A DNA stretch of 40,422 nt from a virus: IMG/VR virus record IMGVR_UViG_3300010885_042660, positions 1-40,422 of that record; one strand, written 5' to 3'. How positions within the stretch are numbered: the stretch's first letter is position 1; each line of letters opens with the position of its first letter. A model generated the notes under the pieces. It was not told where the DNA came from. It ran no database searches and saw nothing but the letters and a program-made list of their open reading frames with translations. Positions 706-16,213 of the stretch are shown here, piece after piece. The translations under genes were made by a program, and so were the position numbers.

Positions 706-2193
706 CTAACTGCAAACAGTCACTCCATACAACTGTTCAAAGCGATCAGCGTCTGCTCGATCGTTGACCATGGGTTCCCCACGTATATTCAAACTGGTGT
801 TGAGCAACATGGGACAACCAGTCATCACGTACCATTTCTCAAGCAGTTCCCTTATGCCCGAACCGTCCTGCGCCACAGTCTGTACTCGGCTGGTGCCATC
901 AACATGACATATAGCAGGAGTAAGGTCAGGCTGGCGACACCTAGCGACTGACTGCATATAAGGACTATGATGCCAACCGGCTGGCATATCAAAATAGTCA
1001 TTAGCCACCTCAGCCAATATGACCGGGGCAAATGGCCTAAACTGTTGACGACGTTTGATGTCATTTACTTTTTCCTTGATCGTGCTGCCTCTAGGGTCTG
1101 CAAGGAGGCTACGGTTTCCGAGTGCGCGGGGACCGAACTCGGCTCGACCTGAGGCAACCCCCACAATAGATTCAGTAAGTAACCGATCCAGAATGCCATT
1201 AACGGGATAAGGCCCAGGAATATCATGCCCGAGATAAGCACTGTGCCAGTTAATTCTATGTCCATGAGCCAAAGCGGCAGCACCAAGGCTACTGCCGGCA
1301 TCACCAGGACAAGGCATAATCCAAATATTCTCAAAGTATTCTCCTAGTACTCGGTTGGCTGTGCAGTTCAACGCCACCCCACCCATATATACCAGATTTT
1401 GACTAAAACTCTGGTTTCTAGCACGAATCATCACTTGTCGAATTAGATCTTCTGTGACCAACTGTGCCGCGGCTGCAATGTTTTCATTGCTGGAATATTC
1501 TAGAAACTTTGCACTCATGCCTGTGTGAAAGTTTTGTTTGAGTGTTATATCACGCTCATTGGCTATCACATGCTCACGCATGTCTTGGTACCAGATATTT
1601 CGACCCCAGGCAGCCATGCCCATGGTGATGTATTCTTCGTCTAGTGGGTGTAGGCCAATGCGGCTAGTAACTGCACTATATAACAGCCCAATGGAGTGCG
1701 GATAAACCTGTCTCCATAATCTACGATACTTTGCCACGCCTTTTGAATCATATTCTGCCCCCCAAATACTTATGGTATCCCACTCACCTATTGCGTCTAT
1801 CACAACCACTGTGGCTCGTTGGAACGGGCTGGTTTGAAAGCCTGCGGCCGCATGCGACAAATGATGATTGTAACTGAGCACACGTTCGGGTTCAATTTGT
1901 CCGCCCAGTTGTTGTTGTAATATTTGTCGGGTTGTGATCTTGTTCCATTCAATGCCTTGACCTGCGTACCATTGTCTGAATTGTTTGTTCCAAGGACGTT
2001 CGTAATAGGCCACAACTTCTGGGCCGTATTCTAACACTTCATCCAACAATCCTTGGCAAAAGTCAGCGTCATTTTTCTTTTTACTATAACGTTCACTATG
2101 TCCAGCAAACAGGATCTCCCCGTGAGGACTTATGACTGTGGCAGCCGCATCGTGAAAGCCTGCTGAAATGCCTAGGATGTTTGGTAATTTCAT
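706..2193 (-). CDS. NodU/TobZ-family O-carbamoyltransferase
   Basis: The 495-residue protein belongs to the carbamoyltransferase family (NodU, CmcH, TobZ), which moves a carbamoyl group from carbamoyl phosphate, through a carbamoyl-adenylate in characterised members, onto a hydroxyl of a sugar or antibiotic. The N-terminal Kae1-like domain begins ILGISAGFHDAA (6-17) and carries the metal-site motif HHLSHAA (110-116). MGGVALNC (270-277), EFGPRALGNRS (352-362), FRPFAPV (385-391) and NTSLNIRGEP (465-474) are the expected motifs of the family. Nothing essential appears missing and the length is close to normal, if slightly short. It ends the overlapping modification run, its ATG overlapping the stop of the 33-residue gene by 4 nt. 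With glycosyltransferases in the same run, a sugar acceptor is the likeliest guess; a nucleotide or protein acceptor is not excluded. Confidence 0.93.
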   Translation of the reverse strand: MKLPNILGISAGFHDAAATVISPHGEILFAGHSERYSKKKNDADFCQGLLDEVLEYGPEVVAYYERPWNKQFRQWYAGQGIEWNKITTRQILQQQLGGQIEPERVLSYNHHLSHAAAGFQTSPFQRATVVVIDAIGEWDTISIWGAEYDSKGVAKYRRLWRQVYPHSIGLLYSAVTSRIGLHPLDEEYITMGMAAWGRNIWYQDMREHVIANERDITLKQNFHTGMSAKFLEYSSNENIAAAAQLVTEDLIRQVMIRARNQSFSQNLVYMGGVALNCTANRVLGEYFENIWIMPCPGDAGSSLGAAALAHGHRINWHSAYLGHDIPGPYPVNGILDRLLTESIVGVASGRAEFGPRALGNRSLLADPRGSTIKEKVNDIKRRQQFRPFAPVILAEVANDYFDMPAGWHHSPYMQSVARCRQPDLTPAICHVDGTSRVQTVAQDGSGIRELLEKWYVMTGCPMLLNTSLNIRGEPMVNDRADADRFEQLYGVTVCS

Positions 2194-2291
2194 TTGTAGA
2201 TAAATGGATCGCGTTTGCGTAGTTCTCGTAACTTCTTGCGATAGCGTATTTCTAGAGCAATTCTATTGATAATTCTTCGTATCCAGTTCAT
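2190..2291 (-). CDS. 33-residue very basic small protein
   Basis: A short frame of 33 codons starts at the ATG at 2291 and ends with TGA at 2190. Its ATG overlaps the stop of the upstream gene by 4 nt and its own stop overlaps the ATG of the carbamoyltransferase by 4 nt, so it fits exactly between two accepted genes with ATGA junctions at both ends. The product begins MNWIRRIINRIALEIRYR, then KKLRELRKR, and ends DPFIYK. It has about 12 Lys/Arg against 3 acidic residues and could form one amphipathic helix. I recall similar short basic proteins ending in a DPFIY-like motif in marine T4-like phages, but cannot check this here. Function is unknown. Confidence 0.75.
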   Translation of the reverse strand: MNWIRRIINRIALEIRYRKKLRELRKRDPFIYK

Positions 2292-2959
2292 GATTGTTTT
2301 TCTGCCAGGTCAGGGTCATACAAAGGAACTGCACAGAAAGTCACAGTGTCCTTTGCCACAGTAACTGAACGTTTGAACGCTATCACTGTTTCCAAGTTGT
2401 AGTAATTGTAATTATGATCAATTGGTTGTGTCCATTGTAATCCTGTACCTATCCCTGTACCATCACGCACAGCATAGTTGGGTTCTACTAGGCCTGCAAA
2501 TTCATTCCAGTCTGCTGGCCAATCCAACAGATATGGCAAGATCAACAAGCGCCATCCTAGAGCCATTCTGGCTCGCCAGGGCCAGTGCAGTAGTTTTATT
2601 CTGTATTCATACAAACTTGGATCATCCACGGTCCAGCGTTGATCTCCAGTGCGAGCCCAGCGTGTGCCATACAACATGTCTGGGTGCAAGCGGCCGCGAC
2701 TGAAGTAGGTATCATAGCCAGTGAGTTGTTCGGGCAAGGGAATGGTATAGCCCAAGGTAGCAAGTCCTCTAAAGCCCAGGCAGTTTCTAATGGTCTGTTG
2801 TTCTGCTATGTCAATTTCTACCCGGCGAGCCTTTTGTTGCTTGAACCAGTCAGGCATGTGATTGCGCATGGGTGCGGGTGCGGCACAGTTCAAATACTGT
2901 ATGTTGGGATCTGTGCAATATTCCCAGGTCAAATAATCATTAACTTGTATGTCTTGCAT
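2288..2959 (-). CDS. Unassigned phage protein, 223 aa
   Basis: I do not assign a function. The protein is 223 residues, rich in Trp and Tyr, with no signal peptide or clear membrane segment. An N-terminal NCAAPAPMRNHMPDWFK stretch (24-40) is followed by a CLGFRGLATLGYTIPLPEQL segment (60-79). The pattern of a Cys, a short helix and then GY-x-IP resembles a group of phage proteins that sit beside glycan or hydroxylase genes; that resemblance is from memory and weak. The C-terminal half has HWPWRARMALGWRLLILP (about 124-141). It overlaps the 344-residue gene upstream by 20 nt and the 33-residue gene downstream by 4 nt, so it is embedded in the coupled modification run. Confidence 0.8.
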   Translation of the reverse strand: MQDIQVNDYLTWEYCTDPNIQYLNCAAPAPMRNHMPDWFKQQKARRVEIDIAEQQTIRNCLGFRGLATLGYTIPLPEQLTGYDTYFSRGRLHPDMLYGTRWARTGDQRWTVDDPSLYEYRIKLLHWPWRARMALGWRLLILPYLLDWPADWNEFAGLVEPNYAVRDGTGIGTGLQWTQPIDHNYNYYNLETVIAFKRSVTVAKDTVTFCAVPLYDPDLAEKQS

Positions 2960-3974
2960 CTAGTGCCCGAATTTGTTGCTGATCGTAATCTGGATCGCTC
3001 CAGTGGTAGTCATAAATGGCTGTGCAATCTGAAGTGCGTATTTGATACACATCCAACTTAGTGGATAACTGGCGCCATATTTGGTCATAAGACTGGGTGC
3101 CAAATGACCTGGAGAGATCAACTTGCCCGATGCAAGGATGGCCGATTGTGAGAGTCTTGTCCTCAGGGTCAAATCCATTCCCGGCAAGCCATTCTCGAAA
3201 TTCTGCCAGTTGCCGGATCTGCCACGGGTATGCGCCAGGATCACGGGCCCATTCAATATCAAAGTCACCAGCCGCTTGACTCTGTGTGCGTAGCCCAGTT
3301 GTAACCAGTTCTGAGATTCTGGAATCCCTACCTTCGTCTTGAAATACCTCCCAGTGATGCTTGCCCACTGCTTTGTTAACTCCCACATACACACCACCCA
3401 GCTTTCTATTGATTGTTTCTATGCCAAACAGTTCTAGATCTGCTGCTTCCAGTTCATAGCGTGGAGCACGTAGCCAGCACATCAACTGTGACGGTCTACG
3501 CCATTCCGGTGCCTGTTGAGCCTTTCGCATGGAAAGCACAAGACTTTCTAGTTCGTGACACAGGAGATTCAATTGACGTATGTGCCAACGTGTGTGATCA
3601 TCTGCGGCTGTATAATGCGGACTCATGGCACCTGCTGTGCCCTGTAGATCTTCAAAATATCTATGCAATTGATTCATTTTGTCATGATCAATGTCTAGAT
3701 CCGCTTGTATTACTGTGCCAGGGCTAAAGAAGTCTTGTATGCGATAATTCAAGCCACTGGCATTAATGGCCATGATTGATCTATTGATCTGTGTACACAA
3801 ATACTCTGCATTGCGCTTGCTTTCGGTCCAGCCCAGCCAGCAGTAGTTCTTTTCCAGGTGCAGTCCTGTACGAACGATATCATTTAGTGCCCCAAGCCAT
3901 TTGCGTGAGAGACTGTTATCATGCACATCTATGTACACTGTCAACATGCTGTTGTCTGCACCGCGCAAAATCAT
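2940..3974 (-). CDS. Unassigned phage protein, about 344 aa
   Basis: I do not recognise an enzyme family. The frame is open from an ATG at 4016, but that start would overlap the upstream gene by 32 nt and add 14 poorly conserved-looking residues. I prefer the ATG at 3974, 10 nt after the upstream stop; the ATG at 3947, giving MLTVYIDVHDN, is an equally possible start. Neither has a clear Shine-Dalgarno. The N-terminal part reads VYIDVHDNSLSRKWLGAL followed by LHLEKNYCWLGW, a pattern I associate with uncharacterised proteins of marine T4-like phages. The middle holds a long helical stretch, and the C-terminal part is rich in Trp, Asp and Tyr. It lies directly after the fifth radical SAM gene and overlaps the next gene by 20 nt. 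Confidence 0.75.
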   Translation of the reverse strand: MILRGADNSMLTVYIDVHDNSLSRKWLGALNDIVRTGLHLEKNYCWLGWTESKRNAEYLCTQINRSIMAINASGLNYRIQDFFSPGTVIQADLDIDHDKMNQLHRYFEDLQGTAGAMSPHYTAADDHTRWHIRQLNLLCHELESLVLSMRKAQQAPEWRRPSQLMCWLRAPRYELEAADLELFGIETINRKLGGVYVGVNKAVGKHHWEVFQDEGRDSRISELVTTGLRTQSQAAGDFDIEWARDPGAYPWQIRQLAEFREWLAGNGFDPEDKTLTIGHPCIGQVDLSRSFGTQSYDQIWRQLSTKLDVYQIRTSDCTAIYDYHWSDPDYDQQQIRALDARHTS

Positions 3975-3984
3975 TTCTATTGAA

Positions 3985-5274
3985 TCAAGCAATTTGCATC
4001 CACCATTTGAGTACATCTGGACGTGAGCCCAGGATATCGGTCATTGTTACCTTTTGTGTTCTTATTTGTTCTAGTTGTAGCACACGGGCTTTGCCTTTTC
4101 GCAAGCCCTCTTGATACTGATCCGGCCACTGTTCCGCAAACGTGGGCCGGGTCTTTAATTGTAGCAGTACATCACGCATGGCACCTGCGGAGCGGCCTGC
4201 TAGTTCGTCAACCCATGGATCCAACAACTCTCTGGGCAGAGCCAATGGACTCAAGACTATATCTGGACTGAAACTGAATATGACCTTGGCCAGTATTTCC
4301 ACTCCCAGTTCTGCGGCCAGACTATTCATAGCGTCAACTTCAGTCATGCCCGGCAGTGTGAGTGTAAAATCTAGACGCATCTGTCTGGCGTTTGTTGCTA
4401 TTGCCAAACCCTGACGGAAGTTCACAAGAAAGGAGGCATAAGATAAACCCGTTCTAATATATTCTCCCACGTCTCCTGTTCCGTCGAGGCTGGCGCAGAT
4501 TTGCCAGTCACGTATGTTTTTAAGAATATCACGGTAAAGGTCAACCCCACGATATTCAATCCTACTAAGATTAGTATTGTATCTAGCATAAAGATTCCCT
4601 CCATCTCCTAATTCTATTATTCTCTGCATGTAGCGCCAATGCTGTTCATACATCAGCGGTTCGCCGCCTACCCAGTATACTTCTTCTACCAGGTGTTGTT
4701 CCACAGCCGCACTAAATTCGGACTCAACTTGATCTTGCTGGAATGATTGTATTGTTCCGCGTATGTCGTTTCGCATCCAATTATTTTTTGGATCAGCCCA
4801 GTTGACCATGTTGTGTTGTTTCTGTTCAGTCTCCCAGGCACTTGAGAGCATGTCTCCGCAAGTACGGCATTTAAAGTTACACAAGTTGCTGAACCTATAA
4901 TCCCATGAAACAGGGCGCATACTAGTCGATCCATCTGGGTCAGTACTATTCCATACTTGATCAAGTCTTCCTCCGAACAAGTGCCCGAAATAATCGCGGT
5001 ATACAGCAACATTGAGTAACTTGTCATTACAAACCTCACATTCTGGCAGTGTTTCTCCGGCCATCATTCTGCGGCGCACACTCCGCATGTGCTCCGAATT
5101 CCAGTGTTGTTCCAGTGTGACTGGTGTGTACTTACCTGTGCCTGCGGCGGTATCAATATATTGCTCAAAGTTCTGTGCAGGTTCACGGCTGGCACAACAC
5201 ATTCTGCGTTCGGTCTGCGGGCTTAGATACGTATGCACCCAAGGTGCCAGGCACATGGTATCAGGTTTTTGCAT
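3985..5274 (-). CDS. Radical SAM enzyme with N-terminal twitch (auxiliary Fe-S) domain, copy 5
   Basis: The 429-residue protein has the radical SAM 4Fe-4S motif C132-NFK-C136-RT-C139, the SAM-binding GGEP at 203-206 and the usual barrel pattern after it. Before the barrel, C8, C26-C27 and C79-x2-C82 (CLAPW, MCCAS, CEVC) form the Cys set of an N-terminal twitch domain that should hold an auxiliary Fe-S cluster. Characterised radical SAM enzymes generate a 5'-deoxyadenosyl radical; proteins with SPASM or twitch domains often act on peptides or sugars. The substrate here is unknown. The C-terminus ends RPDVLKWW, matching a tail motif in the sister copies. It overlaps the upstream sister gene by 14 nt. 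Confidence 0.92.
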   Translation of the reverse strand: MQKPDTMCLAPWVHTYLSPQTERRMCCASREPAQNFEQYIDTAAGTGKYTPVTLEQHWNSEHMRSVRRRMMAGETLPECEVCNDKLLNVAVYRDYFGHLFGGRLDQVWNSTDPDGSTSMRPVSWDYRFSNLCNFKCRTCGDMLSSAWETEQKQHNMVNWADPKNNWMRNDIRGTIQSFQQDQVESEFSAAVEQHLVEEVYWVGGEPLMYEQHWRYMQRIIELGDGGNLYARYNTNLSRIEYRGVDLYRDILKNIRDWQICASLDGTGDVGEYIRTGLSYASFLVNFRQGLAIATNARQMRLDFTLTLPGMTEVDAMNSLAAELGVEILAKVIFSFSPDIVLSPLALPRELLDPWVDELAGRSAGAMRDVLLQLKTRPTFAEQWPDQYQEGLRKGKARVLQLEQIRTQKVTMTDILGSRPDVLKWWMQIA

Positions 5275-6472
5275 ATTTAATCAATTGAGCTAGTTCAGGT
5301 GCTACCTGTGCCAGATCAGTGTTGCGTTTGCGATCAAGATCAGCTATTTTCATACATGTCATTGCACCGTCAGTACTTGCACCACGCATCATGAAGTCTC
5401 TTATGCGATCAAATTCTGGTCGATAACAGGTTTCAATGCTGTCCAAGTATTCTGCTATGGCTGTTTTGGCACTATCGGGCAAGCAAGCAATTGAAAAATA
5501 CCAAGCATCATGCATCATGTTCCAGTACACAAAAGAGAATGATTCTTGATTCTTTTCCAGCCAGCCAGCAATATCACCTAGATAACGCACATTAAAGATG
5601 TTTACTGTGGTACACACTTGTAATTCAATGTTGGGATGGATCTCTTTTAAATCACGGAAACGATCCAGGTTCTCGCACACTCTGACCCATTCAGCATTGG
5701 TGCGCTGATATTCAAAACGCTCGCCCACATCATCCAGGCTGAATGCTATTTCCACAGATTTAAAATGACGCCATATGTCCGCGGCCTGTTCAGGGTACTG
5801 TGTGCCATTTGTGTTGTAGTGTATTTCCACTTGTGATGCAATGCCACGTGCCACCATACCTTGAAGCATCTCAAAGTGTTCCTCAATCATGAACGGTTCA
5901 CCGCCAGTGAATTCTATATAGCGTATGTCATTGAGCACTGAATCAATTTGGCTCCAGAATTGAGGATTGTCCCGTGGCCAAGCGCCTGCACGTAGCATGG
6001 TATAAGCGTGTGACTTTTTTTGTTCGTCTCGACGTGTCCATGCTATTTCTTCTGTGGCCGATTGGCTGCTACTCCATGATCCGCAAATGCGACATTTTAG
6101 ATTGCAGATATTGCCCAGCTTTAGGTCCAAGAACATGAGTGGTTTGGCATCCCGAGTCCATTCTTCGCTGATGCCCATGTGCTTGAGTCTGTCCAAGGTG
6201 TGCATGCGTTTTGAGGTGCGGCCTGCTCGTTCTTCCGACCAGCACTTTCTACATGTTTGTGGCTGTTCGCCCACTAGAAACTGTTCACGCAAGCGTGTCA
6301 TGTGCGCACTGTTTTGTATGTCTTGAAAATTGGCTCGGGACAGTTCAAACTTGTGTCCCTGTTCGTCTAGTATTTCATCATCAGCCAGGCAGCAAGGACG
6401 CACAGTGCCAATTGGACTGGCTTCTAGACTGACCCAAGGCAGTACACAAAATTTAGGGTGTGGTAGATTCAT
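5261..6472 (-). CDS. Radical SAM enzyme with N-terminal twitch domain, copy 4
   Basis: The 403-residue protein carries C123-NLK-C127-RI-C130 as the radical SAM cluster motif and GGEP at 190-193. The N-terminal cysteines C9, C27-C28 and C74-x2-C77 sit in CVLPW, PCCLA and CRKCW contexts, the same layout as copies 3 and 5 (PW/CC subgroup). The end of the protein, APELAQLI, corresponds to the shared xPEL tail. The ATG at 6472 overlaps the stop of copy 3 by 4 nt and the gene overlaps copy 5 by 14 nt. It is the shortest of the five, but no key residue is missing. Substrate unknown. Confidence 0.92.
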   Translation of the reverse strand: MNLPHPKFCVLPWVSLEASPIGTVRPCCLADDEILDEQGHKFELSRANFQDIQNSAHMTRLREQFLVGEQPQTCRKCWSEERAGRTSKRMHTLDRLKHMGISEEWTRDAKPLMFLDLKLGNICNLKCRICGSWSSSQSATEEIAWTRRDEQKKSHAYTMLRAGAWPRDNPQFWSQIDSVLNDIRYIEFTGGEPFMIEEHFEMLQGMVARGIASQVEIHYNTNGTQYPEQAADIWRHFKSVEIAFSLDDVGERFEYQRTNAEWVRVCENLDRFRDLKEIHPNIELQVCTTVNIFNVRYLGDIAGWLEKNQESFSFVYWNMMHDAWYFSIACLPDSAKTAIAEYLDSIETCYRPEFDRIRDFMMRGASTDGAMTCMKIADLDRKRNTDLAQVAPELAQLIKYAKT

Positions 6473-7752
6473 TTTAGTGCTGCCAATTCAGGTAGGGCAT
6501 GATACCATTTTTCATTTCTGATTTGATCCAATTCATTTGTTCGGCGCCAGAATGTGTCTATTAACTGTGTGTTGTCTGTTGCGTTCATAAAGGTAATGGC
6601 CGATTCAAAACCTTGCGTGGCGCGACCCAAGGGATCTCGATCGCTGAGCCAACTCAAATGATTCAAATATCGAGTGCTGAGTTCCTGTTTGTATTCTGCA
6701 GGAGCAATGTCTATTCTATAGTGCGGGGGATCTTGCAGAATATTTACATTGAAATCTTGTGGCTGAATCAATCCAGCCGCGCACCATTCTCGATGAAAAG
6801 ACGGCAGGTGTCGGGCATTTAATATGCTGAGTGTGGCACTGACGTAAAAGTCCACATCAGGACATGTTGCAATCATTTGGTGGCGATTCTGAACAACATC
6901 GTACCACCTGGTGCCTTTGCGTATGTATTCTGCGGCTGCACCCATTCCATCTAAACTGGCACCCACTGCCACACTTGAGAACTGCTTCCAGTATTCAAAT
7001 ACTGAACGGCCTTTGAGATCTGTGTGTGTAAAATTGGTGTTGTATATTAGCCTAACATCTGTGCGCCCACGCTTGAGTAATTCTTCTAGAATACGATAGT
7101 GTTCTTCCATTAGCAAGGGTTCGCCACCAGCAAAGTATATTTGCTCTACATAATCCAAATGTGGCTCCAGTTGTGCCCACATGTCTGTCTCTGTGCGGCC
7201 TGCATAGTTAAGCACTGTGTTTCGATCTTTCCATTCAGGACCTGCAAGTCGTGCTTGATCTTGATACCATTGTGAACTAAAGATATGGCCGCATGAACGG
7301 CATTTTAAATTGCACAAGTTACTGAAACGAATATCCCAGTAGGTCATTTCAAACTGTTCAAGAGATCCATCTACTCTAGTATTTGCTACTCGTTTGATAT
7401 GATGGCCATGGTGCTTGTTTGCTGATTTACGGCCACTAAAGAACCCTGACTCTTCCTGCTCATAACAGCGTGTGCAGGCAGGCATGGCTTCTTCTGTTAA
7501 CATAGCCAGCCTTAGGTTACGCATGGGAAGATCATTCCAGATCTCTTCAAGTGTATTTGTTCTACAGTTGCCCACAACTCCGGGCTTCATTTCAGCATGG
7601 CAACAAGGGTACGCTTCACCTGTGGGATAAGCGTGTAAATGGATCCAGGGATAGATACAGAATGTCTTAGAATCTTCCAATAAGAAACGCTCACGTTCAG
7701 TGAGTTCTGTTGGGCGCACTAGGTCTGTTGAATTATACTTGTATTGAGTCAT
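6469..7752 (-). CDS. Radical SAM enzyme with N-terminal twitch domain, copy 3
   Basis: The 427-residue protein has C147-NLK-C151-RS-C154 and GGEP at 209-212. A roughly 24-residue N-terminal extension rich in charged residues precedes the first twitch cysteine C32 (FCIYPW); C50-C51 (PCCHAE) and C93-x2-C96 (CTRCY) complete the auxiliary set. The segment YWDIRFSNLCNLKCRSC is nearly the same as the equivalent part of copy 5 (SWDYRFSNLCNFKCRTC), showing that these two are close paralogues. The protein ends LPELAALK. Its ATG overlaps the end of copy 2 by 20 nt. Confidence 0.93.
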   Translation of the reverse strand: MTQYKYNSTDLVRPTELTERERFLLEDSKTFCIYPWIHLHAYPTGEAYPCCHAEMKPGVVGNCRTNTLEEIWNDLPMRNLRLAMLTEEAMPACTRCYEQEESGFFSGRKSANKHHGHHIKRVANTRVDGSLEQFEMTYWDIRFSNLCNLKCRSCGHIFSSQWYQDQARLAGPEWKDRNTVLNYAGRTETDMWAQLEPHLDYVEQIYFAGGEPLLMEEHYRILEELLKRGRTDVRLIYNTNFTHTDLKGRSVFEYWKQFSSVAVGASLDGMGAAAEYIRKGTRWYDVVQNRHQMIATCPDVDFYVSATLSILNARHLPSFHREWCAAGLIQPQDFNVNILQDPPHYRIDIAPAEYKQELSTRYLNHLSWLSDRDPLGRATQGFESAITFMNATDNTQLIDTFWRRTNELDQIRNEKWYHALPELAALK

Positions 7753-9070
7753 ACCATTCTTTTAGTTCAGGGAAAGCGGCGCCAAAGTCTTTTGATCTAC
7801 GTTGATCGTACTGCGAATAAAACTGCCGGAAATCGTTCAATAACTTGGGGAGATCAAATGCTTCTGAATGCGGAGTCTTTACTACGTCTAAATAGTCAAT
7901 CAAGCGTTGTGTGTGATTTACTTCGTGTTCATGAATGAATTCAGAATCTGCCCAGTGCTCTAGCCATGTGATTAGGCGTTGACGATATACAGTACGCTGT
8001 GCGTCGGGCAGGATCAAAGGTGATTGAAAGCTGGGGAAGCGCAAGATATTTAGCGTAAAACTGATGGCATCACGTCCGTATTCCAGTTTCCAATTCATTA
8101 TGCATTCCAGCAATTGATCCAGACTGCTTAAACAAAGAGCATTAATAGTACACATCACATGTATGCCACGGAACTGTCCTGAATCCAACAAGCGTTCTAC
8201 GTTGTTGGCCCAGTCGTCCCAGACCAGCCCATCGCGTATGTACTCTGCTTGAGTTGAGATTGCTTCATTGCTGGTGTATAGGTCGATTGCCATTCCCTGT
8301 GTTGAGGCAAGCAGTCGGTCAATGTCAATGTCGGTTCCCAAGTTACTATTGATAGCCAACCTTGTATTACTGCGTCCCCGGTTGTCTCGAAACCAGTCAA
8401 CCAGTCGCCAGGTGTGCGCGGACATGAGGGGCTCTCCTCCGGTGATTCTGAGTTCGGTGAGGGTAAGATGTAGATCACTTTCCCACCAAGCAAAAAATGC
8501 GTCAATGTAGGCATTACTCTCCGTGATCTTAAACAGTTGACTAGCGTCATGAGTGTGAGTAAAATGGTTGCGCCCATCACTGACCAAATTTTGATAGGGT
8601 CCATTATTGCGTATGTCTTTAACCCAAGTTGTGCTAAAAGCAGGGTTACAGTAAGAGCAAGCAAACTGACAAGTGCGGTCAAAAGCAATTTCCAGCGTAC
8701 GGAGATTGACGTCAGCGTGGGGTAAAGTATTTCTGGCTTCATGCAGGACCTCTATGGGATATATCTTTGATTTGTACACACGGTCACTCACAGCGTCGCG
8801 ACCCATGTCTTCGATCTTCCAGCAGTATTCACAACCTGCAGGGCGTTCGCCTGCCAACATCTTGCGTCGATCTTCTTTCTTTTGATCAGTATTGTGCAGT
8901 AGCCTAGGGTTGGCCCGGACTTTATCAATGTCCACCAAATGGGCCGGCGGGTGATGGCAACTTGTGGTCATGCCACTACCCAGCCAGATGGTAGCATTGT
9001 ACCATTTTGCCGCACAAAAACTGGGAGATATATCATCTAATACTTGCTGTTTAAAGTCTAAATCGTTCAT
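7733..9070 (-). CDS. Radical SAM enzyme with N-terminal twitch domain, copy 2
   Basis: I use the ATG at 9070 (445 aa) rather than an in-frame TTG two codons upstream. The radical SAM motif is C134-QFA-C138-SY-C141 and GGEP lies at 211-214. The N-terminal cysteines C19, C38 and C80-x2-C83 occur in CAAKW, SCHHPP and CEYCW contexts. This AKW/CxHPP layout is shared only with copy 1, so the five genes fall into two subgroups. The protein ends FPELKEWY. The gene overlaps the GT10-like gene upstream by 20 nt and copy 3 downstream by 20 nt. Substrate unknown. Confidence 0.93.
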   Translation of the reverse strand: MNDLDFKQQVLDDISPSFCAAKWYNATIWLGSGMTTSCHHPPAHLVDIDKVRANPRLLHNTDQKKEDRRKMLAGERPAGCEYCWKIEDMGRDAVSDRVYKSKIYPIEVLHEARNTLPHADVNLRTLEIAFDRTCQFACSYCNPAFSTTWVKDIRNNGPYQNLVSDGRNHFTHTHDASQLFKITESNAYIDAFFAWWESDLHLTLTELRITGGEPLMSAHTWRLVDWFRDNRGRSNTRLAINSNLGTDIDIDRLLASTQGMAIDLYTSNEAISTQAEYIRDGLVWDDWANNVERLLDSGQFRGIHVMCTINALCLSSLDQLLECIMNWKLEYGRDAISFTLNILRFPSFQSPLILPDAQRTVYRQRLITWLEHWADSEFIHEHEVNHTQRLIDYLDVVKTPHSEAFDLPKLLNDFRQFYSQYDQRRSKDFGAAFPELKEWYDSIQV

Positions 9071-10136
9071 TGACAAATTGATAAAAACGGTTGGGGAATT
9101 CTTGTCTCACTTGTGAGCGTAACTGTGCGAGATGTTGTTGATTATATTTACATGTATTATAACACGCATCAAGGAAACTCACAAGATCTTGTTGGCATAG
9201 ATCTTCAACCACTGCGGCAACTCGTTCTAGACGTTCATCATTGTTGTCAATCATGTCAAACGATTCGTCAATTAGGTGCTCAAATGTTTGAAATCCCAAA
9301 TTGCGCATGTCTCTGTAATAGCCTCGATTGGCCACAGCTATCCAAGGGTGACCAATGGCCACAGGTTTCCATATTTTTTCTGTTCTAAAACTGTAGGGGT
9401 ATCTATGTACCGTTTCTGTCACCAGACTAAAATAGGTGTCAAGGTATGGATTGGCTTCCATGATTACGTCGCCCCAGACATTGTTTGGAAAAATTTTAGA
9501 CTTGATAAAAAATGTCTGATCATCGATATCAAAATCCACATTGAATTCTGCAACTTCATACTTGGATTGTAATTTTTTTAGTTTTCCATTGCCCTGAGAC
9601 AGGTTGGTCCAGATTGCACAATCCAATAGACTGTGCAGACGATCCAACATGTATTTTCTATGATATCTAGTGGCTCCGTTGAAAAACAAGAATTTATAAG
9701 GACGTTGTGTCTGATATAGGTCTTGATATTTTTGTATGGCCCGAAGATTTTCATCGTAGTCCAAAACCTTGGGCAAAAAACTTTCGTATTGCAAACAAGG
9801 CCAGGTGTCGTCCATGTCTCCCCCGCCTATCAATAAAATCTTGTTGTCCAGCACCAAGTCTGCAATACCATAATTGTGGCAATGATTCAGCAGAGTTTCA
9901 GAGCCTTCATGTGGGTTGCTGAACACTGCTTTTATGTTTGAATTATCGATCAATTGTCGAAATTGCTTGGCGTAGAGACGAATTTGTTCTCGACCGATCA
10001 CATACACAGCGCCTGGAACTGTTTGATTCTTGTTGATGTGCTGTTCAAGGTTCCAAAAAATGTCGTCAGCTGACTGCTTGATCATGCTGTAGATTTCGCT
10101 GTGAGTGTCCAGTATCAGTTTATGATTGCCGAGCAT
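9051..10136 (-). CDS. GT10-like glycosyltransferase (phage type)
   Basis: The frame is open from 10286, but the ATG at 10136 gives a sensible start (MLGNHKLIL) and a 17-nt overlap with copy 1, like the other junctions. The 361-residue product has a central FLFFNGATRYHRKYML segment (139-154) and, at 251-258, RTEKIWKP followed by HPWIAVANRGYYRDMRNLGF. A TEK-I motif followed by a hydrophobic strand and a G-Y pair resembles the nucleotide-sugar-binding C-terminal region of GT10 fucosyltransferase-like proteins seen in phage genomes. The family call is moderate; donor and acceptor are unknown. It splits the radical SAM array, lying between copies 1 and 2, which suggests a role in the same pathway. 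Confidence 0.65.
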   Translation of the reverse strand: MLGNHKLILDTHSEIYSMIKQSADDIFWNLEQHINKNQTVPGAVYVIGREQIRLYAKQFRQLIDNSNIKAVFSNPHEGSETLLNHCHNYGIADLVLDNKILLIGGGDMDDTWPCLQYESFLPKVLDYDENLRAIQKYQDLYQTQRPYKFLFFNGATRYHRKYMLDRLHSLLDCAIWTNLSQGNGKLKKLQSKYEVAEFNVDFDIDDQTFFIKSKIFPNNVWGDVIMEANPYLDTYFSLVTETVHRYPYSFRTEKIWKPVAIGHPWIAVANRGYYRDMRNLGFQTFEHLIDESFDMIDNNDERLERVAAVVEDLCQQDLVSFLDACYNTCKYNQQHLAQLRSQVRQEFPNRFYQFVNERFRL

Positions 10137-11499
10137 GATATTCACATTCGGCCCACCAAGAGGCCATTTCAGGAAAGGTCTGCAAAAAGTCTGTGCCACG
10201 ACGTCGATCATGTTCACTAAAGAATCTATAAAAGTCTGCTCGTGCTGGGCTGTGATCTTGAGCTTGTGCTGACCGCATCCAGGCAATGTCCCGATCCAGG
10301 CGGGCCACTTCGTAGTCTTTGAATCCGTGATAGGGACTGGTCTCTGTTGTCACGTGTTGGGACATCCAATCCCGGACCGACTCTAGTTTTTTTGCATAAC
10401 TCGCAGGCAGGATCTGCAGACTTTGCCAAGCAGGCTGGCGTAGTACAGGAGTATCAAACCACACACGTTGATAGGTTGTACTGTATTGCTGACGTAGTTC
10501 CAGTATGCCTTCCAGTAGACGTTGCAGGCTGCTCACACTCAGATTGTTCATTGTGACAATAAATGTCAGGCTATTGTAGGAAGGTACATCGGTCAAGTAC
10601 TGATTCACACGTGACCATACTAGATCGAAGTTCATGCCGTGTCGCATGTATTCGGCTTGTCTACCCCATCCGTCCAGGCTCACATACTGCATGAAGTGTT
10701 CTATGCGTCCGTCGCAAATGGCCTGCACATAAGTGAGATAACGATCAAACAAACTCTGTTCCACTGAGAAATTGCTTGTGACATTCAGGTGCAGTCCAGG
10801 ATTGGATATGGCCAGTACATAGTCAAACACTCTATAAGTGTTTTTATCCATCAGAGGTTCCCCACCGGTCATGCGGAAGTGTCGCAGTTGAGGGTATAGT
10901 GTGGGCCACCAGGACCAAAATGCTTCCACATATGGGTTATGATCCTTTACCGGAATAGGTCGATTGCGGCCAACAAAGTGACTAGGATCGTTATGAACAC
11001 GACCAGTCGGGTAGCCACCCCATCGATCAACTTCGGCTTGCCAGGTGCTGGAGAACTGCGGACTGCAATAACTACAAGCAAGATTGCAAGCGTGATTAAA
11101 ATTGACTTCGACATAACTAGGGACAACATCTTCTTCTCCTGTGGAATTCTTTATCATTTCAAAATCTATAGCTGCCCAGGGCTCGCCCGAACGATAGTGT
11201 CTGTCACTGAGTTTGCCCGCATCTTCCATGTTCCAGCAGTAGGAACATTCCTCAGGGCGTTCTTGACGCAACATGATTTGGCGTTGTTGCTTTTTGTGTT
11301 GGGTATTGTGTAACGCACTGGGATCAAATTTAATTTCTGCAGGATCAATAGCATGCAAAGGCGGATGATAGCATGAGTTGTTGAGTCCTGTGGGCAAGTG
11401 CAGGCTCACCTGCTTCCATTTGGCCAGGCACAGGGCCGGGCCTAATTTATCTTTCATTTGCTCTGCGGAGCTCATGAACGTGCTTTTATTTGTTGTCAT
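10120..11499 (-). CDS. Radical SAM enzyme with N-terminal twitch domain, copy 1
   Basis: The frame is open from 11550, but the ATG at 11499 (459 aa, MTTNKST) overlaps the upstream stop by only 14 nt and is preferred; an ATG at 11475 is also possible. The radical SAM motif is C138-NLA-C142-SY-C145, with TGGEP at 211-215. Twitch cysteines C24, C43 and C85-x2-C88 lie in CLAKW, SCYHPP and CSYCW contexts, as in copy 2. The segments HNTQHKKQQRQIML (64-77) and RPEECSYCW (81-89) also match copy 2 closely, so the pair arose by duplication. The protein ends with FPEMASWW and a short extra tail. Substrate unknown. Confidence 0.93.
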   Translation of the reverse strand: MTTNKSTFMSSAEQMKDKLGPALCLAKWKQVSLHLPTGLNNSCYHPPLHAIDPAEIKFDPSALHNTQHKKQQRQIMLRQERPEECSYCWNMEDAGKLSDRHYRSGEPWAAIDFEMIKNSTGEEDVVPSYVEVNFNHACNLACSYCSPQFSSTWQAEVDRWGGYPTGRVHNDPSHFVGRNRPIPVKDHNPYVEAFWSWWPTLYPQLRHFRMTGGEPLMDKNTYRVFDYVLAISNPGLHLNVTSNFSVEQSLFDRYLTYVQAICDGRIEHFMQYVSLDGWGRQAEYMRHGMNFDLVWSRVNQYLTDVPSYNSLTFIVTMNNLSVSSLQRLLEGILELRQQYSTTYQRVWFDTPVLRQPAWQSLQILPASYAKKLESVRDWMSQHVTTETSPYHGFKDYEVARLDRDIAWMRSAQAQDHSPARADFYRFFSEHDRRRGTDFLQTFPEMASWWAECEYHARQS

Positions 11500-12073
11500 A
11501 ATATTGATTACACAAGTCCAAAATAGGTGCCTGTGGTCCATGTTGTTCAAACATCAGTTGAGCAAAGTCAAATTCAGGGCACACGATGCTGTCTAATTCA
11601 ATTTGCATCATTTCAAAAAATTCTTTGAAGTTGTTATGGTCAACCACAGTGGCTGGTCCGGGACTCCATGGATATTGTTTGTAGTATGCATCGTGCCATG
11701 CTATTGTACTGAACGGTCCTCCCACTGAATGCTGATTACTGCTTATAAATTTTTGAAACAATGCCCATTGTCTGCGCAGACTTTTGACACAGTCAGTGTT
11801 GATAAAAAACACATCTTGTTGATTTTGCCAACATTCTGCAATCAAATCATAGTTGACACAGTGTGTGAATATCACCGGTGCAGATATCAATTGTGATTTT
11901 GTTTCGTCTGATGGATATCTGTTTGCAATAATCTGAAAGGGATTGGAACGATCATAACCTTTGTTTAATTCAAAATTGGTTTTTCCACGCATCCACTTGT
12001 AAAAACGATTGCCACCGCCACCAGGATAAAATGATATAATCACATTACCAGCCTTCTTGTTGTCTAATGACAT
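11486..12073 (-). CDS. Unassigned protein with Gly-rich N-terminal loop, 195 aa
   Basis: Function not recognised. The N-terminus VIISFYPGGGGNRFYKWM (11-28) is a beta strand, a PGGGGNR loop and a helix, reminiscent of nucleotide- or PAPS-binding loops of sulfotransferase-like proteins, but it lacks a Walker A lysine-Ser/Thr and the resemblance is only in shape. THC (71-73) and a later WHDAYY segment are the other notable points. No signal peptide or membrane helix is seen. It overlaps the upstream glycosyltransferase by 29 nt, the longest overlap in the run, and the first radical SAM gene by 14 nt. Its place suggests that it works with the glycosyltransferases; that is inference. Confidence 0.8.
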   Translation of the reverse strand: MSLDNKKAGNVIISFYPGGGGNRFYKWMRGKTNFELNKGYDRSNPFQIIANRYPSDETKSQLISAPVIFTHCVNYDLIAECWQNQQDVFFINTDCVKSLRRQWALFQKFISSNQHSVGGPFSTIAWHDAYYKQYPWSPGPATVVDHNNFKEFFEMMQIELDSIVCPEFDFAQLMFEQHGPQAPILDLCNQYYDNK

Positions 12074-12968
12074 CTATTTCTCTAACTGTCACGCCTCGAT
12101 TGCGCCAGTTTGAGCGATAGTGATATTTGAAAAATGCACTTTGTTCTGCTTCTAGTATGGCCATTGGCAGATCCAGTTGTGTGCCTATTTCGGGCCCCAG
12201 TTGATTGCTGAGTAGTCTAGGTTGTGAATTTTCCACTGTTTTCCATAATTCTGCCAGGGCATCAAAGTCTTTTACCAGTGTGTAGTCCCAGTTTGTGAGC
12301 ATGGTCATGTATGTGCCTTGACGTGCACCGGCTATGGCCCATTCGCCATGCTCTGCATCTGTACCCACATTGTGCCATATGGTCATGTTGTCAAGATTTC
12401 TCAGCACCTGATTTTTGAATTCTTCCACTGTGGGGCGACGTCCGCGTTGCAAACACATCTTGACACCTTCACGGAACCCGGCACGCCAGGCATGAAAAGG
12501 GCTTTGATTGGGATAGGTAGTTGAGTAACAGTCATGCATGGACCAATACAAGGGATCAAAACAAAACTCTACCACAGTTTCGTCACGCCCGTCTGTGTTT
12601 TCGTGTGTACGCATGTTCATTACAAATTGTTTTGTCCATGAACTCAATCCACCATTGCCATACATGAGTCCATTCACATGATTACGAGCCCGCCAGCGGA
12701 GCACCGCTTGTTCATGTTCCGGAGTAGGAAAATCCAGTGTTTGATTAAAAAAAGTCGGGTCCGGAAGATTGTCTCCGTCGATGAGAATAAATCTTTCAGT
12801 TGATGAAGATTCAGCTGCCGCTTTGTGTGCGGCATCCGAGCCCTTGACTCCGTCAATGCGTCGAGCCCAAGGCACCATGTTTTTGATCTTGATCCAAAAC
12901 TCTTCTTTGTTGGGTTCATCATAGCTCAGGTAAATGCAGTCTAGATCTGCGATGTCAATTGAATTCAT
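12045..12968 (-). CDS. GT-A-like glycosyltransferase, DGDN type
   Basis: The 307-residue protein shows the start of a GT-A fold: strand LDCIYLSYDEPN (9-20), then a region ending ERFILIDGDNLPDPTFF (58-74), where D64-G-D66 is the DxD motif that binds the metal and nucleotide sugar. The C-terminal half has WKTVENSQPRLL and a Trp/Arg-rich end. Sugar donor and acceptor are unknown. The gene is not closely similar to the paralogous pair at 13277-14855, so it is probably a separate glycosyltransferase family found in phages. It overlaps the 110-residue gene by 14 nt and the next by 29 nt. Confidence 0.75.
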   Translation of the reverse strand: MNSIDIADLDCIYLSYDEPNKEEFWIKIKNMVPWARRIDGVKGSDAAHKAAAESSSTERFILIDGDNLPDPTFFNQTLDFPTPEHEQAVLRWRARNHVNGLMYGNGGLSSWTKQFVMNMRTHENTDGRDETVVEFCFDPLYWSMHDCYSTTYPNQSPFHAWRAGFREGVKMCLQRGRRPTVEEFKNQVLRNLDNMTIWHNVGTDAEHGEWAIAGARQGTYMTMLTNWDYTLVKDFDALAELWKTVENSQPRLLSNQLGPEIGTQLDLPMAILEAEQSAFFKYHYRSNWRNRGVTVREIDVIRQQEGW

Positions 12969-13287
12969 GTGTTTTCATACTCCAGCATTGGTGTGGTTGG
13001 GACTCGGATACTACTATGGCCACGTTGCTGGGATGGCAAGGTGTTCCTGAATCTGAGTGTGCAAGTTTGTATACTGCTTGTTTTAACTTTATCAATTGAC
13101 CGTTTTGCACTCGAACATCTAACGATGCCAGAATAAAAGTTTCAGGGTCAATGTCAATGTATGCGCCTGGCAGGTGTTCCATACTGTAGGTTATGGGCCG
13201 GCCTTGATCATCATGATACAGGCGCCAGAATATGGGCCTGGGTTCTGGCATGGCTCGCAGTATTGACCAAAATTCATCAGAGGTCAC
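12955..13287 (-). CDS. Unassigned small protein between glycosyltransferases, 110 aa
   Basis: Starts at GTG 13287, overlapping the upstream glycosyltransferase by 11 nt; no in-frame ATG lies nearby, and an out-of-frame ATG just downstream is not usable. The protein has FWRLYHDDQGRPITYSMEHLPGAYIDIDPE (20-49), followed by a strand-rich segment with VRVQNGQLI, and a C-terminus rich in His, Ser and Cys. I recall this 'xxRLYYDDxGxPxxYSMExLPGxYIxID' layout from uncharacterised proteins beside glycan genes in T4-like environmental phages, but assign no function. It may be a structural or accessory component of the neighbouring glycosyltransferases. Confidence 0.75.
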   Translation of the reverse strand: MTSDEFWSILRAMPEPRPIFWRLYHDDQGRPITYSMEHLPGAYIDIDPETFILASLDVRVQNGQLIKLKQAVYKLAHSDSGTPCHPSNVAIVVSESQPHQCWSMKTHEFN

Positions 13288-14062
13288 GGTGCCAGTCCTT
13301 TATATGATAGTGAAATGCACCATGTTGCATCACAGTGTTTACTCGCAGTTCATAATTGCGATATTCCGAAATCATTTCTTCTGTCCAGGCATCGCGTTTG
13401 GCCGCTATGATATGACGCTTCATGTGTACAATTGTGGGATAACTGGCAAAAGGTAGAGTGCAGGTTTCTGGACCAACAATGTTGGCTGCCATGGCGTAAA
13501 CCACATCAGTGCTGGGCAGATCTTCGGGGAATTTCAATAACTTTTTAAAGTGTTCCCAGTTTTCAAATATCATGCGAACAGTGTCAAAAAATTCTTTGGC
13601 TGTTTGACTCAAGCGCCAGTAGGTGATGGCATTGTACACATCTGGCAGGTTGTTGGCATCAAATACCTTGCGATAATGACGTGATCGAGCACGTTGATCT
13701 TTCCAGTCTCTACAACCAGTTGATACCACCACATCTCTATGCTGTAACAGGTTCCACCAGTGGTCAATGTGACTGGTAACCAACATATCTGACTCCAATT
13801 TGATTGTTTCACGGAATGGTGTGGCATGAAACACCTGCCAATCATTGGCATAAGGATTGTCTTTATCAACAGGAAAAGGAAACTTGCGTACATGATCAAA
13901 CAACGGGCCAGCATCCACCTGCTGGTCGGTCAGCAAACATATTCGTGCATCAGGGTGCCAATACTTGATGGTTTTGGCCAAGGTCTCACTGCAATTCACA
14001 TAGTCTGTGCTGGCAGTATTGGCGGCCACTATCAAGTAGCCTTGTTCTTCAATGGGTTTCAA
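13277..14062 (-). CDS. GT-A-like glycosyltransferase paralogue with TTG start
   Basis: 261 residues from a TTG at 14062. No in-frame ATG occurs until about residue 93, a stop lies just upstream, and GGAGAG sits 7 nt before the TTG, so the TTG start is well supported. The N-terminus GYLIVAANTASTDYVN aligns with ALIFAFDNESTDYVT of the neighbour at 14049, and TIKLESDMLV (87-96) aligns with its TLVLDADYVV. Thus an ESD takes the place of the DAD/DxD metal-site motif. Further shared pattern: a T/N-D-x-x-(Y/L) stretch followed by NIVG or NIVNG. The two are tandem paralogues, overlapping by 14 nt. The first Asp of DxD being replaced by Glu may still bind metal. Confidence 0.75.
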   Translation of the reverse strand: MKPIEEQGYLIVAANTASTDYVNCSETLAKTIKYWHPDARICLLTDQQVDAGPLFDHVRKFPFPVDKDNPYANDWQVFHATPFRETIKLESDMLVTSHIDHWWNLLQHRDVVVSTGCRDWKDQRARSRHYRKVFDANNLPDVYNAITYWRLSQTAKEFFDTVRMIFENWEHFKKLLKFPEDLPSTDVVYAMAANIVGPETCTLPFASYPTIVHMKRHIIAAKRDAWTEEMISEYRNYELRVNTVMQHGAFHYHIKDWHRDL

Positions 14063-14855
14063 TTATTCTCTCCAGATGCTGTTTGCCCATGGCATGAAAG
14101 TCTTGATTGCGTATCATGGTCCAACGGGGTCGCTGGTCTTGGTCCTTATAATCTATTCTATAACAATCCTTGCTGAGTCTGGTCAAGGTGTGCTCAGGTG
14201 TAACTGTGCTCAGGTTCCAGGGTATTGAGTTATATTGCAAGGTCTGTCCGTTTACAATATTTAGAGCAATACTTAGTGCATGATCATTGCGAAATGTCAA
14301 ACCTGATATTTTATATAGATCTTTATAGTGTCGCCAATTGGCTCGAACCATTTTCATGCAATCAAATATCAATTCAGCATGTGCACCGCGCCGAAACATC
14401 ATTACCGTGGCCCAGCTCATGGGCATGCGGTATTCACCGTATTGATTGAGAGCCACAAAGTTGTCTTGACTTGTTATATCGTATGCCGCGGCATGTGCTA
14501 GGAAATCTTGATCGCTGTTTAATAGTATTTTCAACTGATCACTGGCCACCACATAGTCAGCGTCTAGAACAAGAGTGCGGTGCCATGGGGTAAGATCATA
14601 AGCCTCAGTTCTACCTGCGTTGTGCCAAGTAACAGACGCTTGATAATCCTCAAACCAACGTGTTCCTCCTGAGGCAGCATCTGCCGCAATGACGTGATCA
14701 AATCCGCTAACTCTAGGATCTCTTGGGCTAGCGTCTGTGACAATGGCCACTGGAATGTTGAGCCACCTACGAATGTTTCTAGCACTCCAGCCAGCCATGG
14801 TAACGTAGTCGGTCGATTCATTGTCAAAAGCAAATATCAGTGCACCTGTGGTCAT
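14049..14855 (-). CDS. GT-A-like glycosyltransferase with DAD motif
   Basis: 268 residues beginning at ATG 14855, which overlaps the stop of the small upstream gene by 4 nt. The N-terminal strand ALIFAFDNESTDYV (5-18), the strand IPVAIVTDA (34-42) and the TLVLDADYVV segment (94-103, D98-A-D100) are the layout of a GT8-like or related GT-A nucleotide-diphospho-sugar transferase. MPMSWATVMMFRRG in the middle and NDHALSIALNIVNG later fit the acceptor-side half of the fold. Donor and acceptor are unknown. The gene and its downstream paralogue open the glycosyltransferase part of the island. Confidence 0.75.
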   Translation of the reverse strand: MTTGALIFAFDNESTDYVTMAGWSARNIRRWLNIPVAIVTDASPRDPRVSGFDHVIAADAASGGTRWFEDYQASVTWHNAGRTEAYDLTPWHRTLVLDADYVVASDQLKILLNSDQDFLAHAAAYDITSQDNFVALNQYGEYRMPMSWATVMMFRRGAHAELIFDCMKMVRANWRHYKDLYKISGLTFRNDHALSIALNIVNGQTLQYNSIPWNLSTVTPEHTLTRLSKDCYRIDYKDQDQRPRWTMIRNQDFHAMGKQHLERIIETH

Positions 14856-15208: not shown

Positions 15209-15235
15209 AGTTCGGTCAGATTAGGCTACCGAACT
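15209..15235 (-). other. 8-bp hairpin overlapping a stop codon
   Basis: AGTTCGGT and ACCGAACT are perfect inverted repeats around an 11-nt loop, spanning the final codons and the TAA of the gene at 15221-16213. It has no U-tract of its own. It sits 6 nt upstream of the second hairpin and may protect the 3' end of the mRNA or assist termination. Confidence 0.55.
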
Positions 15236-16213
15236 GGCCACAGCAGGTGTTCCCCAACTGTTGGTTAGATAACTGGCGGATGGTGGCACAAATCTACAAA
15301 GCACAGCAGGTGCTGTACCAAATGCTGAGAATGGGCTGGTAGTATCTGTTCCGCCAGAAATGTCGGCACTTTGGCCTGCACCAGAGTTGGCTGTTTGGTT
15401 CCAAACCGTGGTCAAAGTTAATACAGTCGAACCAGCATTCACTGCGGCTTGTACTTGAATATAATCACCAGTGTATGGACTGACTGTGCTGTTCAACTGG
15501 AACAAAGTCGTAGCGGCTGCACCCGGAGTCAATGAATACCAGCCTGTTGTGGTCAAGTTAGGCGATGGTGTTCCTGATCCACCTGATCTAGTAAAACCTG
15601 TGTAACTGACACCTGCAATGGTTTGAGCCGCAGAGTTAACTCGACCACTCATGAATAGTGTGCCCACTGTGCCGACAAAGGTGTTCCAGTCAGCATCGAT
15701 ATCTGTACCAGTTGACGTTTTACTCATGTCCAAACGTACTAGGCCGCCAGCGTTCCAAAAATATCTTGCTTGATCAGCACTAGGGAATGTTATGGTCTGT
15801 GTCCAGGTAATGGTCCAAGCACTGCCACCAGAACCTGTAGCAGAGGTTTTGGCAATGGCTCCAGTCCAGGTACTGCTGATTGTACCGGATGCCGCCGCAT
15901 TGCCGCGGTTGGTAGTGACACTGGCGATGTCTGTGGACACAGCAGACAAAACACCAATTGTGGTACCTGCTGTGGGTGCGGATCTTGATGTGAGTGTTGT
16001 TGATGTTTGAGTTCCTGCTGTGGCCAGGTTGTTGACCAGGCTGGCCCATTGTGTTGCTGTCACAGTGCCACCGGTTGCGGCCGAAGTAAAAGCAGTCTGC
16101 CCCCAGCCTTTGTCACCGGACCCGGTGGCCCAGATATCGTTCAAACCACCCGATGTGGTAGTGAATGTGTTGTAATCTGATGCTTGTATTAATCCGCCGC
16201 TTGAATATGTCAT
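15221..16213 (-). CDS. Fibre-like virion structural protein, 330 aa
   Basis: The protein is almost entirely Ser, Thr, Gly and Ala with scattered Trp, typical of secreted or virion beta proteins. The N-terminal part, GGLIQASDYNTF (6-17), ATGSGDKGWGQT (29-40) and ATQWASLVNN (53-62), matches a recurring N-terminal module that I know from virion proteins of environmental T4-like phages (a DYNTF ... TGSGDKGYGQ ... WxSL pattern). The C-terminal half has alternating beta patterns and ends RFVPPSASYLTNSWGTPAVASSVA. Role as a fibre, a whisker or a head decoration cannot be decided. It begins 12 nt after the stop of the larger fibre gene and is followed by the hairpins. Confidence 0.75.
   Translation of the reverse strand: MTYSSGGLIQASDYNTFTTTSGGLNDIWATGSGDKGWGQTAFTSAATGGTVTATQWASLVNNLATAGTQTSTTLTSRSAPTAGTTIGVLSAVSTDIASVTTNRGNAAASGTISSTWTGAIAKTSATGSGGSAWTITWTQTITFPSADQARYFWNAGGLVRLDMSKTSTGTDIDADWNTFVGTVGTLFMSGRVNSAAQTIAGVSYTGFTRSGGSGTPSPNLTTTGWYSLTPGAAATTLFQLNSTVSPYTGDYIQVQAAVNAGSTVLTLTTVWNQTANSGAGQSADISGGTDTTSPFSAFGTAPAVLCRFVPPSASYLTNSWGTPAVASSVA

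Follow-up and report, generated by a model that had tools for sequence, protein, structure and literature searches.

In this work we describe a module of five radical S-adenosylmethionine (SAM) genes, here named c1 to c5, on the IMG/VR virus record IMGVR_UViG_3300010885_042660. The record is linear and 40,422 bases long; we use "the window" for this whole stretch. The five genes belong to five distinct classes of one known enzyme family, NF033640, and as a module these classes are new. They recur together in two lineages of T4-like phages, the second of marine type, with little difference in order between the two, and have counterparts in the Bdellovibrionota. The array is thereby far more widespread, and older, than one contig could reveal. 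We hypothesize that each of the five enzymes performs its own radical oxidation within a single pathway of glycan tailoring, encoded in the host-recognition region of the phage genome, a reading to which we give a little under an even chance.

Five classes of one radical SAM family

The five genes are as follows, in the order of their transcription.

10120..11499, minus strand: c1, N-terminal-twitch radical SAM class 1, AKW...CYHPP; NF033640 309 bits; 80 orthologues, 67-83% identity
7733..9070, minus strand: c2, N-terminal-twitch radical SAM class 2, AKW...CHHPP; NF033640 288 bits; 80 orthologues, 64-92% identity; start at ATG 9070, with TTG at 9076 as a possible alternative
6469..7752, minus strand: c3, N-terminal-twitch radical SAM class 3, YPW...CCH; NF033640 405 bits; AlphaFold2 predicted local distance difference test (pLDDT) score 89; Foldseek match to the radical SAM barrel
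5261..6472, minus strand: c4, N-terminal-twitch radical SAM class 4, LPW...CCL; NF033640 334 bits; 80 orthologues
3985..5274, minus strand: c5, N-terminal-twitch radical SAM class 5, APW...CCA; NF033640 280 bits; 74 orthologues

A first-pass annotation, made from the nucleotide sequence, had described five intact radical SAM genes with CX3CX2C and GGEP motifs, and proposed a search with a twitch-type profile. This description holds. All five open reading frames are intact, both motifs are found in every one, and each protein matches the NCBIfam model NF033640 (N_Twi_rSAM) over its full length with 280-405 bits, where the curated cut-off is 170 bits. The family model itself sets out neither the classes, the array nor a function. 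Prokaryotic viperin was considered as an identity and rejected: the best score against NF038283 is 36.3 bits (c4), compared with a cut-off of 180.

The division into two subgroups by their N-terminal cysteines was also correct. The proteins c1 and c2 carry four (AKW...CxHPP), and c3, c4 and c5 have an additional fifth, adjacent cysteine (CC); the N-termini of the latter three are matched by the Pfam SPASM model PF13186. The four cluster cysteines and the three of CX3CX2C, seven in total, are kept at 97-100% in each class, across 75-83 orthologues from the window's lineage, 59-68 from the second phage lineage and those from bacteria. The five copies are thus neither unrelated enzymes nor carriers of unconserved cysteine motifs. 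Two further cysteines are invariant within single classes, C297 in c3 and C287 in c4, and are possible candidates for hydrogen-atom donors.

One proposal was not borne out, namely that a shared C-terminal tail serves as a common dock for a partner. The NF033640 profile itself extends to position 388-398 in all five proteins, therefore the tail is mostly a family-wide feature. In addition, the P-E/D-L/V element is not conserved in orthologues of c5 (e.g. QDNEIYGWW and ARSDVLKWW), and the only near-invariant residue in the tail is the Arg of LDxxR. We have consequently rejected the docking tail.

With corrected starts, adjacent genes overlap by 4-32 bases from position 12968 down to 2288, an arrangement as in a single transcription unit. 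A scan for promoters and terminators gave counts without a clear excess over shuffled sequences.

Distribution in phages and Bdellovibrionota

The first-pass annotation had called for a count of the array in related contigs. We scanned viral contigs with c3 as the bait, which gave 201 relatives, and kept 80 loci (71-86% identical). Orthologues of all five classes are present in 70 of these 80, at 60-92% identity to the window copies, and the remaining 10 end at a contig boundary. An alternative count of 73 complete loci is made up of these 70, the window and two whole genomes. Because c3 had served as bait, the lineage was sampled a second time by a baseplate gene: nine long contigs were tested, and all four that reach the array site (L109, L120, L138 and L150) hold array members there. 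A gp23-type major capsid gene is found in six of seven large relatives; the window itself stops short of that gene. The baseplate wedge protein of the window shares 33-34% identity with its homologues in jumbo phages such as Atu_ph07 and CBB. We therefore place the window in a T4-type jumbo-phage lineage. The near-complete relatives (320-353 kb) host 11-21 NF033640 family members each.

None of the phages in INPHARED carries the module, and the window's lineage has no cultured member in that collection. Distant matches there, at 21-27% identity, are the Vibrio phages K566 and K567 and two partial ones. K566 (L202, a 255-kb isolate genome) has five distant radical SAM genes within 33 kb, and is a potential laboratory model.

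Scanning bacterial genomes yielded both true chromosomes and contigs that look like fragments of T4-like phages, filed in metagenome-assembled genomes by binning errors (L203-L207). The latter carry the labels Pelagibacter, Verrucomicrobia, Betaproteobacteria, Flavobacterium and Rickettsiales, and some of them come from marine TMED and Pelagibacter bins. We take them as phage because phage structural genes are present in the same order. Together with 63 viral loci found by a scan with the L203 copy, they form a second lineage of 68 loci. All five classes are present in 56 of these; the exceptions are cut by a contig end, save for the rearranged L206. The usual order is a structural gene, a pair of glycosyltransferase (GT)-like genes, a gene with a DGDN motif, c1, c2, c3, c5, c4, an O-carbamoyltransferase gene and a second DGDN gene. 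Neither g2940 (see below) nor the gene that separates c1 from c2 belongs to the core common to both lineages. A gp23-type capsid gene was found in three of eight second-lineage fragments.

True bacterial counterparts were found in the Bdellovibrionota. A Bacteriovoracaceae contig (L209) has the order c2, c5, a c4-like gene, c3, c4, c1 and a second c2 orthologue, with about 8 kb from the first c2 to c1 and 36-52% identity. Genes resembling those of ObgE and L27 were also seen by eye on this contig. NF033640 is present in 73 of 241 sampled Bdellovibrionota genomes. Fifteen of the 241 have a member of the DGDN family, all of them among the 73 (Fisher 5.5e-9, with relatedness ignored), and in at least 10 of the 15 the gene lies within 4 kb of an NF033640 gene. 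The bacterial islands share with the phages the five classes on one chromosome (L209) and the DGDN gene beside family members, but they usually have more, and other, classes and no linked carbamoyltransferase was seen in them. In some (L285-L286, L287-L288, L289-L290, L294 and L301) many NF033640 genes lie with other radical SAM families, and one genome gave 50 first-look candidates. We found no published account of this expansion in the freely licensed literature.

A phylogeny of the five copies with their homologues had likewise been called for. In a tree of 169 proteins (quick mode, midpoint root), each class forms its own clade uniting both phage lineages, with Shimodaira-Hasegawa-like approximate likelihood ratio test (SH-aLRT) values of 89-99. 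The Bdellovibrionota copies branch beside each class, firmly for c1, c2 and c5 and less firmly for c3 and c4. As each clade unites two phage lineages and has Bdellovibrionota copies beside it, the tree points to five classes that split before phages held them, and to a set that moved together. Each class is under purifying selection: the median ratios of non-synonymous to synonymous substitution rates (dN/dS) are 0.08-0.11 across c1-c5, with dS often saturated. Across loci, the distances of the five genes are correlated with one another (Mantel r 0.28-0.68, c3 weakest), as expected for a block that is co-inherited but recombining.

That the classes are orthologous, keep their order, form separate clades and evolve under purifying selection speaks for five non-redundant functions, and supports the suggestion that a diverged array reflects several distinct steps. 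Five oxygen-sensitive, SAM-consuming enzymes are a considerable load, and the order has been kept in two phage lineages despite this, which implies a strong benefit. Judged by the position of the genes, the benefit is probably at host recognition.

The first-pass annotation had mentioned only single radical SAM genes in marine phages, which understates the precedent, since T4-like and giant phages rich in such genes have been reported. The 183-kb T4-like genome TARA_ERS488813_N000010 has 12 radical SAM genes, and phage iron-sulfur (Fe-S) assembly genes are discussed alongside it (PMC5332604). Aeromonas phage 332-Vera has eight in a structural cluster, termed 'highly unusual' (PMC12390700). Pelagimyophages have radical SAM cassettes in a host-recognition cluster whose glycosyltransferases were suggested to alter the host O-chain (PMC7029224). 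These phages resemble the window's lineage in having many radical SAM genes per genome amid genes for structure or host recognition, in some cases accompanied by glycosyltransferases and Fe-S assembly genes. Our comparison is by reported gene counts; the available portions of these three reports do not define five orthologous classes, a fixed order or a bacterial counterpart. We found no description of the five stable classes and their module in the freely licensed literature.

A proposed glycan-tailoring pathway and its alternatives

The partners of the module that bear on its function, and the structural gene upstream of it, are as follows.

706..2193, minus strand: NodU/TobZ/GdmN-type O-carbamoyltransferase; PF16861 164.9 bits and PF02543 128.5 bits, both over the cut-off; phrog_1601
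9051..10136, minus strand: GT-like gene between c1 and c2, C-terminal TEKIWKP motif; start at ATG 10136; orthologues 22-57% identical
12045..12968, minus strand: g12045, DGDN motif, possible GT-A-fold enzyme; 76 loci of the window's lineage, 67 of 68 of the second
13277..14062, minus strand: GT-like paralogue pair, member 2; phrog_1903 (unknown); pair family in 64 of 68 second-lineage loci
14049..14855, minus strand: GT-like paralogue pair, member 1; same cluster as 13277-14062
15221..16213, minus strand: Thr/Ser-rich structural protein, tail-fibre-like by sequence, upstream of the module; homologue in 59 of 68 second-lineage loci

Both phage lineages consistently keep the DGDN gene, the GT-like pair and the O-carbamoyltransferase; among solved structures, the last is closest to novobiocin carbamoyltransferase, GdmN and TobZ. 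Variable slots host genes for an NAD-epimerase/GDP-mannose dehydratase, an FkbM methyltransferase, a DegT aminotransferase, a tryptophan halogenase, a GHMP kinase and an amidinotransferase related to AGAT/StrB1; one second-lineage copy additionally has DegT and PIG-L deacetylase genes. The gene between c1 and c2 had been labelled GT10-like. It does lie there, but the GT10 label was rejected, as Pfam PF00852 is unmatched and the protein has no Pfam match at all. This gene evolves fast and is essentially limited to the window's lineage, with two occurrences in the 68 second-lineage loci.

The AlphaFold2 model of c3 has an N-terminal domain followed by the radical SAM barrel. Searched as a profile, the N-terminal domain gave BtrN, the 2-deoxy-scyllo-inosamine dehydrogenase of the butirosin pathway, as its only significant PDB match (E 8e-4). 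The four cysteines are aligned between the related twitch domains, but in BtrN the twitch comes after the barrel and in c1-c5 before it. BtrN uses a fully Cys-ligated auxiliary cluster in the oxidation of an aminocyclitol alcohol. On the basis of this relationship, we propose that sugar-type substrates undergo radical oxidation or epimerisation, with the five enzymes acting in turn.

The proposed mechanism runs as follows. Five non-redundant enzymes would act in one pathway, encoded next to the tail and structural genes. At each [4Fe-4S]-SAM site a 5'-deoxyadenosyl radical would be generated, and the N-terminal, BtrN-type auxiliary [4Fe-4S] cluster with its four cysteines would probably accept an electron. 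Given this electron uptake, the likeliest net reaction is a radical oxidation (or epimerisation) at a C-H/C-OH position. The substrate is probably a residue, sugar or aminocyclitol-like, in a glycan that the linked GT-like enzymes assemble; capping would follow, by the linked O-carbamoyltransferase and by lineage-specific tailoring genes. The finished glycan might decorate the tail fibres or be placed on the surface of the host. Whereas the gene set, its family, the cysteine conservation, order, orthology, selection and co-occurrence are observed, we infer the oxidation chemistry, the glycan substrate and the match of five enzymes to five steps of one pathway.

Several results weigh against this proposal. 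We found no NF033640 member of known reaction. The closest solved folds point to no single substrate class: a Foldseek search with the c3 model returned a sactipeptide enzyme, SkfB, anSME, BlsE and viperin together, i.e. the general radical SAM barrel, and since their substrate classes are mixed the search is uninformative on the substrate. That the partner genes encode GTs is suggested by motifs and a weak profile match. When the g12045 profile was aligned with GT2 by hhalign, its DGD fell on the DxD (P=0.0048, a weak match); the paralogue pair was assigned by motif, with a non-significant profile match; and Pfam and PDB searches with the profiles of the GT-like genes, g12045 included, gave nothing significant. 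Between the enzymes of the Bacteriovoracaceae array (L209) we recognised neither a GT nor a carbamoyltransferase gene, and 58 of the 73 NF033640-bearing Bdellovibrionota genomes have no DGDN gene.

The best-surviving alternative is that the enzymes modify residues of a phage structural protein (by epimerisation, oxidation or cross-links) in the style of SPASM maturases. The Thr/Ser-rich protein at 15221-16213 is a candidate target, and a structural gene lies directly upstream of the array in both phage lineages. SPASM/twitch enzymes frequently act on peptides, SPASM matches c3-c5, and a sactipeptide enzyme, SkfB and anSME are among the best Foldseek matches. Yet every score of c1-c5 against the peptide-maturase equivalog models is far under the cut-off, no precursor-like peptide was noticed among the neighbours of the array, and both the constant and the variable neighbours are of sugar type. 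We consider protein modification unlikely, though the strongest of the alternatives.

It is considerably more doubtful that the module makes a diffusible or host-directed small molecule during infection, e.g. an aminocyclitol- or aminoglycoside-like compound that suppresses competitors or alters the host. The amidinotransferase, carbamoyltransferase, DegT aminotransferase and halogenase genes resemble antibiotic tailoring, and an adenylate-forming ligase was named by eye, but the locus lies amid tail and structural genes in both lineages and no transport or resistance genes were noticed. Least probable is an accumulation of interchangeable or selfish paralogues without division of labour, as the 11-21 family members per genome, some inserted singly between replication genes, might suggest: the array classes form separate clades in two phage lineages, in fixed order and under purifying selection, and the lone copies elsewhere are other, diverged family members.

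Should glycan tailoring be correct, the module would be a radical-chemistry route to a new surface sugar, for which we found no phage precedent. A more specific version, which we regard as improbable in its full form, is a five-step pathway common to aquatic T4-like phages and Bdellovibrionota that yields an oxidised, carbamoylated sugar or aminocyclitol-like surface residue for cell recognition, on phage tail fibres and on a predator-type bacterium. With the bacterial counterpart, the product can also be sought in another system that is genetically separate.

Gene neighbourhood and further observations

On the minus strand the window runs from baseplate genes through a structural protein of 4885 amino acids and further structural proteins to a tight gene block that reaches the window end. 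The remaining features are as follows.

33418..36894, minus strand: baseplate wedge protein; phrog_10646
18761..33418, minus strand: giant virion structural protein, 4885 amino acids, upstream of the module; phrog_10938 973 bits
16226..17968, minus strand: virion structural protein; phrog_14394
12955..13287, minus strand: conserved small protein of the block; 68 loci
11486..12073, minus strand: variable-slot gene, rare; 3 loci; no family match
2940..4016, minus strand: g2940, core gene of the window's lineage, overlapping c5; 73 loci
2288..2959, minus strand: variable-slot gene; phrog_7084, unknown function

The AlphaFold2 model of g2940 (pLDDT 82) has no match in the PDB. A stretch of the giant structural protein resembles baseplate hub/lysozyme and head-closure families. 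In the variable slots, many SGNH-like proteins and additional radical SAM genes were seen by eye.

One relative (G027) has single NF033640-type genes amid T4-like replication genes (L175-L180, positions 190119-294230). Going by names assigned by eye, these lie between gp47-like and gp46-like genes, after primase-like, helicase-like and UvsW-like genes, and near a UvsX-like gene. Such insertion places are reminiscent of those of homing endonucleases.

Finally, all seven relatives that measure 320 kb or more encode IscU, which is consistent with the Fe-S demand of radical SAM enzymes. In G027 (G027:C1:291406-292102) an A-type-carrier-like gene comes after the IscU scaffold gene, and a radical SAM gene lies nearby.

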